From Bacteroidota bacterium (lineage in GTDB: Bacteria > Bacteroidota > Bacteroidia > B-17B0 > Aurantibacillaceae), in NCBI GenBank assembly GCA_030684395.1, contig JAUXTT010000001.1, forward strand, positions 62,001 through 126,000: a stretch of DNA of 64,000 bases, written 5' to 3'. The notes beneath the pieces were generated by a model, which was not told the DNA's origin, made no database searches, and worked only from the letters and a program-made list of their open reading frames with translations. Within the stretch, counting starts at the first letter, position 1. Every line of letters begins with the position of its first letter. The translations under genes and the position numbers were made by a program. Below, piece after piece: positions 56,468-64,000 of the stretch.

Positions 56468-56482
56468 AATGTATAACAAAAA

Positions 56483-56605
56483 TCACACAGCAATTTTAAA
56501 CTTCTCATCGCAGTTCAGCACTTCTCCAAAATCCACCGTTAAATGTACATCCATTGCGTTAAACAGGTGCTGACTAAAATCAGCTAATCCGCTGACATTC
56601 TTCAT
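56483..56605 (-). CDS. possible 40-aa small ORF or remnant
   Basis: ATG 56605 opens a 40-codon frame on the minus strand with protein-like composition (NVSGLADFSQHLFNAMDVH, then LTVDFGEVLNCDEKFKIAV). It is convergent with the LytTR regulator gene. No promoter or family is evident, and it could be a degraded gene tail. The remainder of the 279-base gap shows nothing else definite. Confidence 0.25.
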   Translation of the reverse strand: MKNVSGLADFSQHLFNAMDVHLTVDFGEVLNCDEKFKIAV

Positions 56606-56746
56606 TTCGCATTAATTCCAATAAAAATACATTTGACTTGTAGAAGAGTTCCTTCGGCTCAAAATATTATGGATAGATTACACATAATCCGGAAGTTTGG
56701 AAATACTCTTTTACTATGTTTATTAGACCACTAAAAACTAAATTAA

Positions 56747-57352
56747 ATGAAATTACTATTAATGCTTTTAAGCTGTATTGGATTTATAGAAAATTCAATT
56801 GCTCAGGATAATCCCTTAAATGAACCAAAAAAAAGGGACGATTACTTTTATGTGGCGCCTGTTGACCTGTTTCTGAACACCATTCAACTGGGATATGAGA
56901 AAAGATTAAAAAACCACAATACCATTGCTCTTTTTGGCGGATTCAAAATGTCAAAAAAAGATGAGATCATAAATCGTCTTGGTGGAAGCGGTGAACTTCA
57001 ATATAGAATAAATTTACTCTATAATAAAGAAGCATTAAGTTCGGTTGCAAGAAAATATTCCACCTTTGCATATTTTGCTCCATTTGTTCAATATAAATAT
57101 GAGGACATAAAAGATAATATAGTAGGCGATGTTTTGAAAACTGAAAACACATTTGTGAACTCAGGGTTTGGCGGGCTTGGTTTTGGATGCAGATTAACTG
57201 CGCTTGAGAATCGTTTTTGTTTTAACCTTTATGCCGGGGGCGGACTAAGGTATTCGGATGTAAATGGGAACAAAAAATACGCCGATTTCTTGCAAGTGGG
57301 ATACACCGGTATTGCTCCAAAAATTTCTTTTCAAATTGGAATCGCGTTTTAA
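56747..57352 (+). CDS. small outer-membrane beta-barrel-like protein
   Basis: A 201-residue exported protein with a signal peptide (MLLSCIGFIENSIAQ). The rest alternates polar and hydrophobic residues in strands (IQLGYEKRL, FGGLGFGCRL, NLYAGGGLRYS) and ends in FQIGIAF with a terminal Phe. This is the pattern of small eight-stranded barrels such as DUF3575 proteins. It precedes a universal stress protein gene by 18 bases in the same direction. Confidence 0.65.
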   Translation: MKLLLMLLSCIGFIENSIAQDNPLNEPKKRDDYFYVAPVDLFLNTIQLGYEKRLKNHNTIALFGGFKMSKKDEIINRLGGSGELQYRINLLYNKEALSSVARKYSTFAYFAPFVQYKYEDIKDNIVGDVLKTENTFVNSGFGGLGFGCRLTALENRFCFNLYAGGGLRYSDVNGNKKYADFLQVGYTGIAPKISFQIGIAF

Positions 57353-57370
57353 AACTAAACTCAAAACAAC

Positions 57371-58219
57371 ATGAAAAAAATATTAGTTCCAACAGATTTT
57401 TCAAAAACCTCCGAAAATGCCTTGCTTTATGCAATAGAGTTGGCAAAAGCAGAAGATGCTAAACTTATTTTACTTCATGTAGATCCAACTGAAACCGCAA
57501 ATCCTGATGTTCTTTATCCCGAAGCAATAGAAACAATAAAAAAAGAAGCAAAAAAAGAGCTTGATGATCTTACTTCAAAAATTACTCAAACCGGAAAAAT
57601 CAAGTACGAATCTCTCATCAAAGAGGGCTTTATTTTTGAAACAATTCTCAATGTAATTAAAGAAAAAGAAGTTGATTTGGTTGTTATGGGAACCAAAGGA
57701 GAGGGAAGTCTTTCTAACATGATTTTTGGAAGCAATACTGCCAAAATAATAGAAAAAGCACGATGCCCCGTAATTGCGGTTCCGGAAGGCGTTGAGTTCA
57801 ATCCTATAAAAAAGATCACCTATGCAACTGCATATCACCATAGCGATATTAATTGTTTAAAGAAAATAATTGAAATTGCTAAACCTTTCAATGCTCAAAT
57901 AGATGTTTTACATATTTCTGACATCGAACAGTCGCCAGATAGTGAAAAGGAGATGATGAAAAAATTTATGAATGAGGTAAATGAAAAAGTTCAATACACC
58001 AACATGTCCTTTCAGTTATTAAGCGGAAAAAAAATAGAAAAAGCATTGGAAAAATACCTTGAAAAGGATTCAACGAGTATACTTGCCCTGTCAACTCATC
58101 AGCGGGATTTTTTTGATAAACTTTTCGGGAAAAGTATCACAAAGCACATGGCCTATCATACAAAAACCCCTTTAATAGCATTTCATCACACTAACGAATC
58201 TGCAATAAAATTGATTTAA
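57371..58219 (+). CDS. universal stress protein, tandem domains
   Basis: A 282-residue protein with two UspA domains. The first has the opening KKILVPTDFSKTSENAL and the ATP-loop pattern GTKGEGSLSNMIFGSNT near residues 116-132, so it probably binds ATP. The second (about 150-282) has lost most of the loop glycines. The related gene at 60107 is on the opposite strand with a class II ribonucleotide reductase between them. Such proteins accumulate on growth arrest or oxygen limitation. Confidence 0.9.
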   Translation: MKKILVPTDFSKTSENALLYAIELAKAEDAKLILLHVDPTETANPDVLYPEAIETIKKEAKKELDDLTSKITQTGKIKYESLIKEGFIFETILNVIKEKEVDLVVMGTKGEGSLSNMIFGSNTAKIIEKARCPVIAVPEGVEFNPIKKITYATAYHHSDINCLKKIIEIAKPFNAQIDVLHISDIEQSPDSEKEMMKKFMNEVNEKVQYTNMSFQLLSGKKIEKALEKYLEKDSTSILALSTHQRDFFDKLFGKSITKHMAYHTKTPLIAFHHTNESAIKLI

Positions 58220-58330
58220 GAAGAAATATCTTTTACTCAACTAGCCGCTCATTTGTGTAAGCGATGATGATTGGTTTTATTTCACAGGCAATTATAGTTA
58301 AATCCTTTTGATATTGTATAGTATTGACTA

Positions 58331-58349
58331 AATTAGTGGTGCACTAATT
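58331..58349. promoter_or_regulatory. inverted repeat abutting the reductase start codon
   Basis: AATTAGT (58331-58337), a five-base spacer, and ACTAATT (58343-58349) form a perfect repeat immediately before ATG 58350. It could be an operator or a leader hairpin affecting start-codon access. Confidence 0.45.
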
Positions 58350-60095
58350 ATGAATCGCTTAAATAAAAATGCCATTAAAGTTCTTGAGAGTCGCTATTTA
58401 TTAAAAAATAACGAAGGGAAAATTATTGAAACTCCAGAGCAACTTTTTGAAAGAGTTGCCAAACACATAGCAAAAGCAGAATTAATTTATGGTGATATGC
58501 AATCTGCACTAAAGTGGGAGAAAATATTTTTTGACATGATGGCGCAATTATATTTTTTGCCTAACTCCCCCACTTTAATGAATGCCGGTTTGCCCTTAAA
58601 TCAATTAAGTGCCTGCTTTGTATTACCGATTGAGGACAGTATAGAGGGAATTTTCACCAGCCTAAAAAACACAGCTTTAATCCAACAAAGTGGAGGAGGC
58701 ACCGGCTTTAATTTTTCACGGTTACGTCAAAAGGGAGACTTTGTTCACTCTACTTCCGGTATTTCTTCCGGGCCAATTGCTTTCATGAAAATATTTGATG
58801 CTGCCACCAACAATATAAAACAAGGTGGAAAAAGGCGTGGAGCCAATATGGGAATTTTGAACATTGATCATCCAGATATTGAAGAATTTATTTCCATTAA
58901 GCTTGAAGAAGGAACATTAAGTAACTTTAATATTTCTGTAGGGATTTATGACAGCTTTATGAAAGCGGTAGAAGAAAACAAGCCCTGGCAGTTAAAACAT
59001 CCAAACACCGGTAAAGTAATTAAAACAATTCCTGCTCAACAACTTTGGAATAAAATAACGCATTGCGCATGGCAAAGTGGTGATCCCGGGTTGATCTTTC
59101 TTGACACTATCAATGCCAGCAATCCAACTCCTTCTATTGGTGATATAATTTCTACAAACCCCTGCGGAGAAGTTCCACTGTTGGCTTTCGAAGCTTGCAA
59201 CCTGGGATCCATAGATGTGGCCAAATTAATTGACCCGAAGAAAAGAGAATTTGATTGGGACCAATTTTCCAAAATTATTATCAATAGCATCCGGTTTCTC
59301 GACAATGTAATTGACATGAATAATTACCTCATTCCTGAAATTACTACCATTGTAAAAGGAAACAGAAAAATTGGGTTGGGGATAATGGGTTGGGCCGACC
59401 TGCTGATTAAAATGGAAATTCCTTATGCTTCCGAAAACGCATTACAATTTGCAGAAAAACTCATGCAATTTATGAAAGAGAAATGTGACCGGGCATCACA
59501 GGATCTGGCTAAAGAAAGAGGTGTATTTAAGAACTGGGGTGAAAGTATTTTCTCACCTCATCATACAATGAGAAATGCAACACGCAGTAGTATTGCACCA
59601 ACCGGCACAATCTCTATTGTTGCAGGAACAAGTTCATCCATAGAACCAATTTTTGCATTAGCTATCCACAGAGAGAATGTTTTAAACAACGAGTCACTTT
59701 TTGAAATAAACGAGAATTTTATTACCTACTTAAAAGATCATAATTTATACTCCGAAGAAGTAATCAATGAAGTAAAAAAGAATGGCACAATAAGCCAAAC
59801 TAAGCTGCCTCAAAACGTGAAAGAGCTATTTAAGACTTCTCTTGAGATCGAACCTTATTGGCACATCATGCACCAGGTTGCTTTTCAAAAATACACCGAC
59901 AATGCAGTTTCAAAAACCATTAATCTTCCTGAAAGTGCAACGGAAAAAGAAGTAAACGATGCCTACCTTCTCGCATGGAAAGAAAAAGCGAAAGGCGTTA
60001 CCGTATTTCGTTATGGTTCCAAAACAAATCAAGTATTAACCCGCGGCGTATCGGAAAACGAAAATCAAGGCAGTTGTAAAGTTTGCTTCACTTAA
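58350..60095 (+). CDS. nrdJ: class II (B12-dependent) ribonucleotide reductase, short form
   Basis: A 581-residue ribonucleotide reductase of the adenosylcobalamin type, which does not need oxygen. Visible in order: NSPTLMNAG (72-80), C89 in LSACFVLP, GGGTGFNFSRLR, STSGISSGPIAFMK, the radical-site C272 in TNPCGEV, C283 in EACNLGSID, and APTGTISIVAG. C-terminal C576-KVC579 is the re-reduction pair. It lacks an N-terminal ATP-cone and is shorter than most class II enzymes (700 or more). No class I subunits adjoin it. Flanking universal stress genes suggest use during low-oxygen or stress phases. Confidence 0.9.
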   Translation: MNRLNKNAIKVLESRYLLKNNEGKIIETPEQLFERVAKHIAKAELIYGDMQSALKWEKIFFDMMAQLYFLPNSPTLMNAGLPLNQLSACFVLPIEDSIEGIFTSLKNTALIQQSGGGTGFNFSRLRQKGDFVHSTSGISSGPIAFMKIFDAATNNIKQGGKRRGANMGILNIDHPDIEEFISIKLEEGTLSNFNISVGIYDSFMKAVEENKPWQLKHPNTGKVIKTIPAQQLWNKITHCAWQSGDPGLIFLDTINASNPTPSIGDIISTNPCGEVPLLAFEACNLGSIDVAKLIDPKKREFDWDQFSKIIINSIRFLDNVIDMNNYLIPEITTIVKGNRKIGLGIMGWADLLIKMEIPYASENALQFAEKLMQFMKEKCDRASQDLAKERGVFKNWGESIFSPHHTMRNATRSSIAPTGTISIVAGTSSSIEPIFALAIHRENVLNNESLFEINENFITYLKDHNLYSEEVINEVKKNGTISQTKLPQNVKELFKTSLEIEPYWHIMHQVAFQKYTDNAVSKTINLPESATEKEVNDAYLLAWKEKAKGVTVFRYGSKTNQVLTRGVSENENQGSCKVCFT

Positions 60096-60106
60096 ATTCA
60101 AGTACT

Positions 60107-60928
60107 TCATTCATGGATTGCCAGCAAAGGAATGCTTGTATGAAAAGCCATTTTTTTAATGTGCGGTTCTACAAAAAGGTTCTGGATTAATGATTTTTTT
60201 CTTGTTACCATAACCAACATATCAATTCCATATTCGGCAATAAAATCACTTATTCCCTCAGACACGTCTTCTTGTACGGTTTGATGTACCGAGTGTGGTA
60301 AGTCGGCAAATACATCTTCCCCCTCTATAACCTCTGCATCACTTGAAACAGGAATAGTTTTTACTTCATTTACAACATTCAGTATATACACATGAGAACC
60401 AAAAGCTTTTACCAGATCTTTTAATGGCCAAAATGTTGCTTTTCTTACTGCATGCCCATCGAGTGCAACTGCTATTTTTTTAGGAACATTAAACTTAACC
60501 CCCGAACCAATAGAAATAACCGGGCATTTACCGTCTCTTATCACCGCAGTAGTAATGCTGCCAATTAATTTTTCACTTAACCAACCACCTCCCTGCATTC
60601 CCATTATAATAAGATCGACCTTGTTTTCCTTGGTGAATTCCATTATTCTGTCAACTGCAAAACCGCATTCGCACGCACATTCGATATCCAGGTCTTTTTT
60701 AGATGTTGAAAGAATCGACTTCCTGATTTCGTTCAATTTTTCCATGCATACCTTCTCTTGCTCCTCCAGTGAAATTACAACTACAGGAACTTCAACCGCC
60801 ACAGGAGGTGTATGATAAACATGAAATAAAACAATGTGAGAATCCACATGATGCGAAAACTGAACGGCATACTCAATTGCATTTTCAGAAGCTTCCGAAA
60901 AATCTGTTGGAACAAGAATTGTTTTCAT
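60107..60928 (-). CDS. universal stress protein, tandem domains
   Basis: A 273-residue protein with two UspA-like domains, about a quarter identical in pattern to the product at 57371. The first begins KTILVPTDFSEASENAIEYA and has the ATP-loop pattern MGMQGGGWLSEKLIGSIT near 110-127. The second half is degenerate. It is convergent with nrdJ, only 11 bases apart. A perfect palindrome (61011-61022) lies 83 bases upstream of its start and may be its operator. Confidence 0.9.
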   Translation of the reverse strand: MKTILVPTDFSEASENAIEYAVQFSHHVDSHIVLFHVYHTPPVAVEVPVVVISLEEQEKVCMEKLNEIRKSILSTSKKDLDIECACECGFAVDRIMEFTKENKVDLIIMGMQGGGWLSEKLIGSITTAVIRDGKCPVISIGSGVKFNVPKKIAVALDGHAVRKATFWPLKDLVKAFGSHVYILNVVNEVKTIPVSSDAEVIEGEDVFADLPHSVHQTVQEDVSEGISDFIAEYGIDMLVMVTRKKSLIQNLFVEPHIKKMAFHTSIPLLAIHE

Positions 60929-61010
60929 AACTCAATTTTTTTTGGGGGGTTGTGAAGTAAAGGTATTTTGGTTTCATCTCATTAAATATGAGTGCTATCA
61001 CCATGAATTA

Positions 61011-61022
61011 TGATTATAATCA
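61011..61022. promoter_or_regulatory. TGATTATAATCA palindrome
   Basis: A perfect 12-base palindrome upstream of the minus-strand stress-protein gene. Its form (TGAT...ATCA) is like half-sites of CRP/FNR-family regulators. No such regulator is in the window. Confidence 0.4.
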
Positions 61023-61223
61023 GGATTTTCCAAAGGTGAAGGCAAAACCTTATATGGAAAACAAAAAAATGAAGTTCATTTTATCACTCTTTCAGGGAAT
61101 AAATAGTTGCATTTTAAACATAATAAAGATCATGCATGATTGAATATATTCCGTACTATCCCTCTTTCTGTCCCCAGATTAAATTCTTGTAAGAAAACAA
61201 AATCCTCTGAAACCCCTATAAAC

Positions 61224-61256
61224 AAAAAAAAGGCTTATGAAATTAATCATAAGCCT
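61224..61256 (-). terminator. terminator of a minus-strand tRNA gene
   Basis: AGGCTTATGA / TCATAAGCCT form a ten-base perfect stem with a six-base loop. Read on the minus strand it is followed by a run of eight T. It lies 12 bases beyond the tRNA 3'-end fragment, as expected for a tRNA terminator. Confidence 0.8.
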
Positions 61257-61268
61257 TTTCACTCATCT

Positions 61269-61283
61269 GTACCTCCGGCGGGA
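61269..61283 (-). other. tRNA 3'-end fragment (attachment site)
   Basis: On the minus strand this reads TCCCGCCGGAGGTAC, the T-arm and acceptor end of a tRNA, but the T loop and the rest of the tRNA are missing to the right. A tRNA terminator lies on its left and a tyrosine recombinase on its right. This is how a target tRNA looks at the fragment end of an integrated element, so the site is probably attL or attR. Confidence 0.6.
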
Positions 61284-61325
61284 CCAACAGATATTATATT
61301 TATACTAGTAATCAGAGGGTTATAA

Positions 61326-61381
61326 ATTGTCCCAAGAGCTATTTTTTGCTCTTTCCACCATATTGTCCCTTTAATTGTCCC
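61326..61381. repeat. three ATTGTCCC direct repeats
   Basis: ATTGTCCC occurs at 61326-61333, 61362-61369 and 61374-61381, spaced 36 and 12 bases. An AAGAGC/GCTCTT hairpin (61334-61353) lies between the first two. They sit between the attachment site and the recombinase start, where arm-type binding sites are found. Confidence 0.5.
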
Positions 61382-61401: not shown

Positions 61402-62607
61402 ATGAAAATCACCTTTAGACTAAAAAACAAGTCTAGGGATTTTAGTTACTTATTTGCAGACATCAGTGTTAATAGCTTCCGCTTAAAATACTCCATTAAA
61501 TTATCAGTTAAATCAACCTTTTTTGATGAAAAGAAACAAAGATTAAACTCTGAAGCTCCAGAAGCAGAGGAAATTAACGTGCTTTTGATAAAATATGAGG
61601 GAGATATTGGAAGATTAATTAGGAATATCAATGAAGATGGAAGCTTAAGCAGAGAAAATCTTAAAATTGAGCTGGATAAATTATTCAGAAAGTCTTATTC
61701 ACAGGATTTTCTTACTGATTACATAAAGTTCATCATCACTAGCTCTAAAATAACTAAGAAACCAAGAACAGTTTTACATTACCAAACTACCCTGCATAAA
61801 ATACTACAGTATGAAGCAAGGTTTAAACAAAAATTAAGCTTTAAGGGCATTGATTATCACTTTTATACAGCTTTTCTCCACTTCTGCAAACATGATCTTC
61901 TGTTGGCTCCAAATACAATTGGAGGCCATATAAAGAACATTAAAACTTTCATGAACATAGGCATTGAAAATGGTATAACAGATAACCTTGTATTCAATGG
62001 AAAGCTGTTCAAAAAACCTTCCGAAGATGTAGAAACTGTATATCTCTCAGAAGAAGAATTAACCAAACTGAGTGAAACCTCTTACAGCAGCATTAAGCTT
62101 GAGAAGGTGAGGGATATTTTTTTGTTAGGCTGCTACACTGGATTAAGGATAAGTGATTATAATAAGATCAGCCATTCTAATCTGCTTCCAAATAGCACAA
62201 TCCTGAAAGTAATAACAGAAAAAACACAGGAAGAAGTGTATATACCTTTGAATAAGAATGCAGTCAACCTATTGCAAAAATACAATGGTAAAATTGAAGT
62301 GATCTCCCATCAAAAATTCAATGTTTATTTGAAAGAAGTGTGTAGGATTGCGGGAATAAATGAGATTATAAATGTTACCAAAACTAAGGGTAATACAAAA
62401 ATTACTTATTCTCTACCAAAGCATGAAATAATTACTTCTCATTGTGCAAGAAGGAGCTTTGCCACTAATGCTTTCAAAGCAGGAGTCCCTTCAATTAGTA
62501 TCATGAAGATAACTGGGCATAGAACAGAGAAGAGTTTTCTGAGATACATCAGGATAACCAAAGAGGAGAATGCTAAGCTGATTAGTGAGCATGAGTTTTT
62601 TAAATAG
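61402..62607 (+). CDS. tyrosine recombinase / integrase
   Basis: A 401-residue phage-type integrase starting at ATG 61402; an earlier in-frame start at 61375 lies in the repeat region and is not used. An Arm-type N-terminal strand domain (residues 1-60), a SAM-like core-binding domain (about 100-200) and the catalytic domain (215-400) follow in order. The catalytic residues are visible as Arg in CYTGLRISD, His/Arg in SHCARRSFATN, His in KITGHRTEKS and Tyr in FLRYIRI. It belongs to the Bacteroidota mobile-element type. It is next to an att-like tRNA fragment and drives the element that continues to the right. Confidence 0.93.
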   Translation: MKITFRLKNKSRDFSYLFADISVNSFRLKYSIKLSVKSTFFDEKKQRLNSEAPEAEEINVLLIKYEGDIGRLIRNINEDGSLSRENLKIELDKLFRKSYSQDFLTDYIKFIITSSKITKKPRTVLHYQTTLHKILQYEARFKQKLSFKGIDYHFYTAFLHFCKHDLLLAPNTIGGHIKNIKTFMNIGIENGITDNLVFNGKLFKKPSEDVETVYLSEEELTKLSETSYSSIKLEKVRDIFLLGCYTGLRISDYNKISHSNLLPNSTILKVITEKTQEEVYIPLNKNAVNLLQKYNGKIEVISHQKFNVYLKEVCRIAGINEIINVTKTKGNTKITYSLPKHEIITSHCARRSFATNAFKAGVPSISIMKITGHRTEKSFLRYIRITKEENAKLISEHEFFK

Positions 62608-62670: not shown

Positions 62671-64000
62671 ATGGCCTCAGAACAGAGTTATATTGATTTC
62701 AAAAGACATCTGGAAAATGAAAAAAACAGTAGAATTATTTTTTCTGGACCATTTGGTATTGGGAAAACTACATTTCTACGAGAATATTTTGATCAGGAGC
62801 AGAGCTACATTACAATAAAGCTTAATCCAATTAATTATTCAGTTTCTTCAAATGAAGACATATTCCAGCTGATAAAGCATGACATTTTATTCAATATTCT
62901 CAGCTCAAAGATTCCTCTTGAAGAAATAAAATTCACTAGACTTGAAACACTTGCAATGTATTTTCCTCAAAAAATGGATGAGCTTTTTAGCTCCATTTTA
63001 AGCTTCGCTCCAAAAACAGGAAATATGTTAGTTGATAATATAGAGCCAATATATTCAATACTTAAAAAATGCACCAAAGCATTTGAAAAACCTAAAGTGA
63101 AAAGTCAGAAAAAGGAATTAATTCAATTTCTTCAAAGTTTCACTTCTAAAGAAGGTAACATTTATGAAGAGGACATTGTAACTCTCCTAATACAGGATCT
63201 GATTTTGGAGGTGTCTTCAAATGAAAGGAAAGTGGTTTTGATGATAGATGATCTAGATAGATTAGACCCAGAACATATCTTTAGGATTTTGAATATTTTT
63301 AGTTCTCATTACCACAGTTTTGACAACAAGCATAAATTTAATTTTGATAAAGTTATATTGGTTTGTGATATTCAGAACATAAAATCAATTTTTAAACATA
63401 GATATGGACAAGAAGTAGATTTTATGGGCTACATGGACAAGTTTTTCAGCACAGAAATTTACCATTTTTATAATATCACAGCATTAAAGAATTGGCTAAC
63501 AGATAAGACAAATCTAGTCTCTAATAATAGCCCAATTTTAACTAAATCGGATGCTATATTTATTTTTGACCTTATTAACTATTTTGTAATTCATGGGAAA
63601 ATTAATTTTAGAAATATATTAAAGCTTGAATACAAAGATTTGATGAAGAGATTTGATGAAGTGTATGAGAAAGCAATGAAAAAGGAAGTATTCAACTTAC
63701 ATATTTCTAAAATTGGTTATATTTTAAAAATTCTGTTTGGAGATCATTATAATTTACTGGACAGGATAGAGGATGTAAAAGACTATTATGAAAGACAGGA
63801 TAAAAAGGACATTTTTGATAATTCCCATAAATTTGGAGAGTATTATAGGATGTATATATTTCCAGCTATAACATACAAAGAGCATAGTTTTGAAGCCCGT
63901 GGCCTTAATTATTCTCCAGGAAATGGCGGACTTGTAACAATTACAATAAAGGAAGAAAAGAGTATTAATAAATTAGACTATTTAGTTGCAAATACAGATA
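62671..64000 (+). CDS. KAP-family P-loop NTPase (partial)
   Basis: An open frame of 443 codons starting at ATG 62671 and running past the window end. The Walker A motif is GPFGIGKTTFL near residue 28. A Walker B with the KAP signature LMIDDLDRLDP lies near residue 190, followed by VILVCDIQNIKSIF and YMDKFFSTEIYHF, typical of KAP NTPases. KAP proteins are common in mobile elements and defence loci, often with a membrane-embedded insert, which is not obvious here. It is a cargo gene of the integrated element. Confidence 0.85.
   Translation, partial: MASEQSYIDFKRHLENEKNSRIIFSGPFGIGKTTFLREYFDQEQSYITIKLNPINYSVSSNEDIFQLIKHDILFNILSSKIPLEEIKFTRLETLAMYFPQKMDELFSSILSFAPKTGNMLVDNIEPIYSILKKCTKAFEKPKVKSQKKELIQFLQSFTSKEGNIYEEDIVTLLIQDLILEVSSNERKVVLMIDDLDRLDPEHIFRILNIFSSHYHSFDNKHKFNFDKVILVCDIQNIKSIFKHRYGQEVDFMGYMDKFFSTEIYHFYNITALKNWLTDKTNLVSNNSPILTKSDAIFIFDLINYFVIHGKINFRNILKLEYKDLMKRFDEVYEKAMKKEVFNLHISKIGYILKILFGDHYNLLDRIEDVKDYYERQDKKDIFDNSHKFGEYYRMYIFPAITYKEHSFEARGLNYSPGNGGLVTITIKEEKSINKLDYLVANTD

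Follow-up and report, generated by a model that had tools for sequence, protein, structure and literature searches.

The boundary studied here is very probably attL, the integrase-side end of an island that integrated site-specifically in a tRNA-Leu(TAA) gene. It is marked by two identical repeats, an intact tRNA gene, an integrase gene, copies of a 16-base motif and target duplications of an insertion sequence (IS). The full reading also takes in an inferred contig join, putative integrase arm sites, a probable scar of an earlier island, an expected effect of the IS on excision and a possible defence cargo. The island is of a known kind but unannotated. It can be delimited exactly, and what adjoins it is probably the fossil of an older island.

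The window, meaning the whole stretch of 64,000 nucleotides that was analysed, corresponds to C6:62001-126000 in an assembly of 4.87 Mb and 44 contigs. Positions given without a contig name refer to the window.

A repeat of 84 bp connects the boundary with an intact tRNA gene

The boundary contains the following features.

61201-61284: left attachment repeat, 84 bp, the longest exact match, identical to C8:215-298
61269-61284, minus strand: last 16 nucleotides of tRNA-Leu(TAA), the same letters with which the tRNA found by ARAGORN at C8:283-367 ends
61227-61260, minus strand: intrinsic tRNA terminator, located within the repeat, with a 14-pair stem and a T run (terminator scan)

Read on the minus strand, the 84-bp repeat is composed of 16 nucleotides of a tRNA 3' end, the terminator and about 22 further bp. 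The tRNA part covers the 3' sides of the T arm and of the acceptor stem, plus one base, of tRNA-Leu(TAA). The minus strand of region 61221-61268 folds with an energy of -19.3 kcal/mol (z = -6.2). A tRNA 3' end followed by a strong terminator on the minus strand had been described at this place, and the terminator scan, the z score of the fold and the identity to the tRNA on C8 all agree with that description. The tRNA fragment itself stands, but its length had been given as 15 bases; it has 16 and lies within the 84-bp repeat. The terminator had been thought merely to stay on the left. It is instead part of the 84-bp duplication.

The intact tRNA-Leu(TAA) gene is located on another contig (C8:283-367), with a tRNA-Asn gene upstream of it (C8:504-580). 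The repeat copy at C8:215-298 forms its 3' end. The preliminary description had predicted an intact tRNA at the far end of the element, beyond position 64000, and had set reading past the window for a complete tRNA with the same ending as the check, with the lack of a nearby second copy as the refuting outcome. This outcome did not arise: the complete tRNA and the second copy are indeed present on C8, which is connected to C6 by the join proposed below. The interpretation of the boundary as the end of an integrated element is supported, the second repeat copy being found at a complete tRNA, at a distance (8,636 bp and one IS copy) that is plausible for such an element.

In the 4.87-Mb assembly, a search that allowed up to 2 mismatches found the 16-mer of the tRNA end twice and no third copy. 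In the window it occurs once with up to 3 mismatches (shuffle mean 0.03), and searching the window revealed no third copy of either the repeat or the tRNA end. The 16-mer is also seen in six viral contigs. No copy of the terminator was found in the viral contigs.

An insertion sequence at the right end of the island

The two island ends lie on different contigs and are spanned by no read. The end of C6 and the start of C8 are both inside an insertion sequence with an ISL3-type transposase. This IS is multi-copy in the assembly and its ends coincide with the ends of other copies: the C6 tail from 131823 matches other copies beginning at the same base, and C8:1-192 matches C16:950-1141, both ending at the same base. 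The 8-mer AATTTATC precedes the IS on C6 and follows it on C8. Different 8-mers are found at the other IS left ends (C42, C12 and C31) and at the other right end (C16). Because matching 8-bp target duplications are seen for the C6 end and the C8 start only, and because of the arm-to-core spacing that results, we infer that C6, the IS and C8 form one continuous stretch. With this join, the island, roughly 10 kb in all, consists of 8,636 bp, one repeat counted, and an additional IS whose length is 1,281 bp (140 + 1,141) or more.

One may imagine that the C8 repeat belongs to a different insertion and that the C6 element continues elsewhere, in a larger island or with another contig order. Such a reading would exploit the fact that the join passes through a multi-copy IS, but we regard it as very improbable: the target duplications pair C6 with no contig other than C8, removal of the IS leaves 26 bp between arm and core, just as on the left side, and the tRNA end has no third place. 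An 84-bp repeat may mislead a short-read assembler, so that the integrated and excised forms are indistinguishable. Another copy of an ISL3-type IS occupies G000:C16:1-1141, with its right end about 85 bp from a tRNA-Val gene.

Integrase and cargo of the island

Two genes of the island begin in the window.

61402-62607, plus strand: tyrosine integrase (PF00589, PF13102 and sub-threshold PF17293), first ATG at 61402
62671-64000, continuing to C6:126083, plus strand: KAP-family P-loop NTPase, 470 aa (PF07693, E = 2.6e-10)

The integrase that had been reported immediately to the right of the boundary is confirmed by Pfam matches to Phage_integrase (E = 1.3e-13) and to a SAM-like domain (E = 2.2e-11). 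With a TTG start, its frame would begin at 61375. A third match, to Arm-DNA-bind_5 (E = 3.2e-4), reaches 21.6 bits, just under the cut-off of 22.6. Residues R249, K274, H347, R350, H373 and Y382 are invariant in an alignment of 9 relatives; we take them to be the catalytic R-K-H-R-H pentad and tyrosine. Judged from its sequence, the integrase is probably of the Bacteroidota CTnDOT/NBU1 type. Its gene is located inside the island, at the end opposite the intact tRNA.

The gene order is integrase, KAP NTPase, TIR-like protein (370 aa), small HTH protein (77 aa, minus strand), then proteins of 184 aa, 278 aa (minus strand), 106 aa and 78 aa, and a DUF4238 protein (286 aa, minus strand). Beyond these lie the right arm, then the IS and finally the tRNA. 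The KAP NTPase partially matches the candidate defence family PDC-S20 of PADLOC (E = 3.5e-9), and the TIR-like protein matches a PADLOC TIR effector (E = 2.4e-5) as well as PF10137 below threshold. These matches suggest that the KAP NTPase and the TIR-like protein may serve phage defence; no complete defence system was named. The 278-aa protein shows a weak match to replication initiators. Family searches of the nine island ORFs named no mobilization protein. No phage structural or packaging genes were found, the PHROGs matches being confined to integrase, regulators, weak replication and unknown families. In the viral contigs, no relatives of the KAP protein were found, and the integrase has two distant relatives there.

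Putative arm sites with a pitch of 12 bp

A short word recurs between the left repeat and the integrase gene.

61328, 61364 and 61376 (within 61328-61381), plus strand: integrase-side putative arm sites, TGTCCC, in a 12-bp register

In the right arm of the island, TGTCCC is found at two places 12 bp apart. Repeats at a distance of 12 bp are observed upstream of 19 of 29 integrases, against 4 of 28 integrase bodies; the set was made of 29 relatives and our own integrase, 30 sequences from which one, highly repetitive, was removed. A larger comparison used the best 80 of 526 confirmed loci, which are therefore no random sample. Three of these loci were dropped, two with too little upstream DNA and one duplicate (L149). 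A 6-mer recurring at exactly 12 bp was present in 67 of the 77 upstream regions, with 9/77 integrase bodies and 9/67 stretches located 3 kb upstream as controls. The commonest arm word is (T/C)GTCCC(C), and others occur, such as TACCCTCAACC. The same word is often found in right arms. Among the best 80 of 526 loci, a 12-bp pair was seen in 17 of 22 right arms and on the inside of the left repeat in 20 of 22. We take the TGTCCC repeats for putative arm sites of the integrase.

No mention of the 12-bp pitch was found in the accessible part of PMC8138268, nor in the rest of the literature searched. Most of the CTnDOT/NBU1 biochemistry is outside that coverage, so we make no claim of novelty. At L083 (2750-2822), GGGACA, which reads TGTCCC on the opposite strand, occurs seven times at an exact spacing of 12 bp upstream of an integrase, a series of putative arm sites that is exceptionally long.

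The left flank as a probable scar of an earlier island

Outside the island, to the left of the repeat, three features are relevant.

61159-61174, plus strand: TCCCTCTTTCTGTCCC, a pair of putative arm sites beyond the island edge, separated from the repeat by 26 bp
61175-61200, plus strand: spacer of 26 bp between scar arm and repeat, equal in length to the island's right spacer and diverged in sequence
60107-60928, minus strand: universal stress protein (Usp) gene (PF00582, E = 3e-35), the nearest gene to the left of the boundary

To the left of the repeat we probably see the remaining right end of an older, related island instead of plain chromosome, so that the site would be a tandem junction. 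This reading is based on an arm motif that is conserved at 16 of 16 bases and lies at the same 26-bp distance from the repeat, a configuration seen in none of 22 comparators. The assembly contains two exact copies of TCCCTCTTTCTGTCCC, one at 61159-61174 and one in the island's right arm (C6:131795-131810). After removal of the IS and one target duplication, the right-arm copy has this same distance of 26 bp to its repeat. From base composition, about 8e-4 exact copies are expected per genome. The scar pair, TATCCC/TGTCCC, fails the automatic 6-mer rule and was found only by the 16-mer test.

For comparison, 41 loci with a minus-strand tRNA were considered, and the test was applied to the 22 that have a left repeat overlapping the tRNA. 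In all 22, the longest word common to the outside-left and right-arm 200 bp has 6 to 11 bases; our island has a shared word of 16 bases at an identical offset. An arm motif at the matching place outside the repeat was found in 0/22 of these comparators, which are among the best 80 of 526 loci. At L120 and L160, the terminator is repeated too, without an outside arm; duplication of a terminator alone is therefore no sign of a tandem arrangement.

Ordinary single integration next to ancestral chromosome, with the 16-mer as a chance or unrelated resemblance, would account for several observations. Other remains of an earlier element were not found on C6, where the sole PF00589 match is the integrase of the present island. 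The far end of an earlier element is not found in the assembly either, the tRNA end having only its two places. Past the scar motif, the next 60 bp do not resemble the right end of the island, and by the shared-word test all 22 comparators, taken from the best 80 of 526 loci, are single. The exact 16-mer at the same 26-bp distance nevertheless has, from base composition, a probability of about 8.5e-11 at a fixed place, with the genome-wide expectation given above, and we consider single integration unlikely.

A duplicate of the island's own right end, produced by aberrant excision or replication, would explain why the motif, the spacing and the 84-bp repeat are alike on both sides. A recent duplication would, however, carry the spacer and the flank along. 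The 26-bp spacers differ ungapped at 17/26 positions next to 84 identical bp, and the unrelated sequence past the motif also speaks against a copy, an origin that we think quite unlikely. The spacers, identical at 9/26 positions without gaps, still give a gapped alignment that beats 97.7% of 5,000 shuffles (p about 0.02).

The junction with an earlier island can be extended to a fuller account, which we find moderately probable. At least two related islands would have used tRNA-Leu in turn, leaving a fossil tandem junction with a hybrid attP-like site in the window, flanked on one side by arms of the lost island and on the other by arms of the present one, and a right end locked by the IS, and the 12-bp pitch would mark the integrase group.

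Genome G001, of the same genus, has the same order of tRNA-Leu, tRNA-Asn and a PfkB-like gene, without the 84-bp repeat beside it, and no integrase match at E <= 1e-30. Its synteny with the window ends at 56469, and other genes adjoin its tRNA-Leu, unlike the present left flank. An empty site carrying the same left flank was not found. Region 56470-61158 contains OMP-like, Usp, ribonucleotide reductase and Usp genes. Since DNA similarity to G001 stops at 56469, this stretch may have arrived or moved separately. The Usp, ribonucleotide reductase and Usp genes were considered as possible cargo of the earlier island: relatives commonly have Usp homologues (40/60 genomes), and for 11 of the Usp-bearing relatives the short flanks gave no match to the ribonucleotide reductase gene.

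Proposed mechanism and its meaning

The integrase would join attP to attB inside the 84-bp site, made of the tRNA-Leu 3' end and its terminator, and two 84-bp repeats would result. The right repeat would complete the 3' end of the tRNA and supply its terminator, with the promoter and body of the tRNA kept. The left repeat would be a leftover fragment. The integrase presumably binds the TGTCCC arm sites, spaced at a pitch of 12 bp, both left and right of the core. As arm motifs are present on both sides of the left repeat, this repeat is predicted to resemble a complete attP. On the right, the IS separates the arm sites from the core, so that excision by attL x attR is probably impaired.

A tRNA terminator can travel within a duplicated att site. 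A right-arm motif outside an island may offer a simple sequence sign of serial use of one tRNA by related islands, and, provided that binding is confirmed, the 12-bp pitch could help to locate att sites throughout the Bacteroidota. If the present reading is true, att sites and scars of lost islands can be read from sequence alone.

Relation to known elements and to other islands

Among described elements, NBU1 and the Riemerella 10K island come closest, as far as the excerpts consulted go. NBU1, a mobilizable element of Bacteroides, targets the 3' end of a Leu-tRNA with its integrase IntN1 (PMC8138268, PMC10865867). The likeness to NBU1 is one of description: NBU1 is mobilizable, whereas no mobilization protein is named among the nine proteins of our island, and the present site is distinguished by the 84-bp repeat that includes a terminator and by the probable tandem scar.

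The 10K genomic island of Riemerella anatipestifer (Flavobacteriia) is about 10 kb long and targets tRNA-Arg. It encodes a tyrosine integrase with an intN1_C_like domain, and both excision and integration were shown. Its 53-bp direct repeat is printed with a sequence that ends in a hairpin-like stretch (PMC6764341). By description, it is similar to our island in size, tyrosine integrase, tRNA target and hairpin in the repeat. It differs in its target, tRNA-Arg instead of tRNA-Leu, and the portion of PMC6764341 consulted reports neither an IS in the right arm nor an outside arm.

The IntCTnDOT subgroup comprises arm-binding tyrosine recombinases, according to the part of PMC8138268 seen. The present Bacteroidota integrase has similar core-binding and catalytic domains and a putative N-terminal arm-binding domain, whose match is just below the Pfam cut-off. 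Serial or tandem use of one att site by related islands is described for SGI1 in the text available from PMC2297512. SGI1 has another target gene and host, and at the present site nothing but an arm-plus-repeat scar would remain of the first element.

Relatives of the integrase at E <= 1e-30 are found in 42 of 199 genomes, our own included. In 41 of the best 80 of 526 loci, as in the present island, the integrase is followed downstream, at a distance of 5.4 to 11 kb, by an intact tRNA on the minus strand. At L120 and L160, the repeat comprises part of a tRNA and the terminator, as here. In the close relatives L104, L105 and L107 (43-47% integrase identity), a whole tRNA gene of 74-95 bp makes up the repeat, and different terminators follow. 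Two complete identical tRNA copies (Leu, Arg and Lys, respectively) are present at L104 (9763-9857 and 20769-20863), L105 (9776-9849 and 18207-18280) and L107 (3284-3359 and 10253-10328), which places the whole tRNA gene inside the att repeat. At L106 (9747-9872), the left copy of a tRNA-Lys is apparently split by an insertion of about 50 bp, and the right copy is complete.

A single element family including all comparators was considered and rejected: the integrase is shared, but the backbone genes that are frequent in relatives (clusters c1-c4) were not found in our island (blastp/HMM, E <= 10). Among 42 islands examined, 24 (between L109 and L175) represent a compact Bacteroidota type of about 5.4-7 kb. 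Its gene set consists of an integrase, a protein of about 220 aa, an HTH_17 protein of about 100 aa, a protein of about 71 aa and a REP_ORF2-G2P rolling-circle-type protein of about 280 aa (L113), followed by 1-3 variable genes. Its cargo, from 51 proteins scanned, includes methyltransferases, restriction enzymes, GmrSD_N and OLD-like domains.
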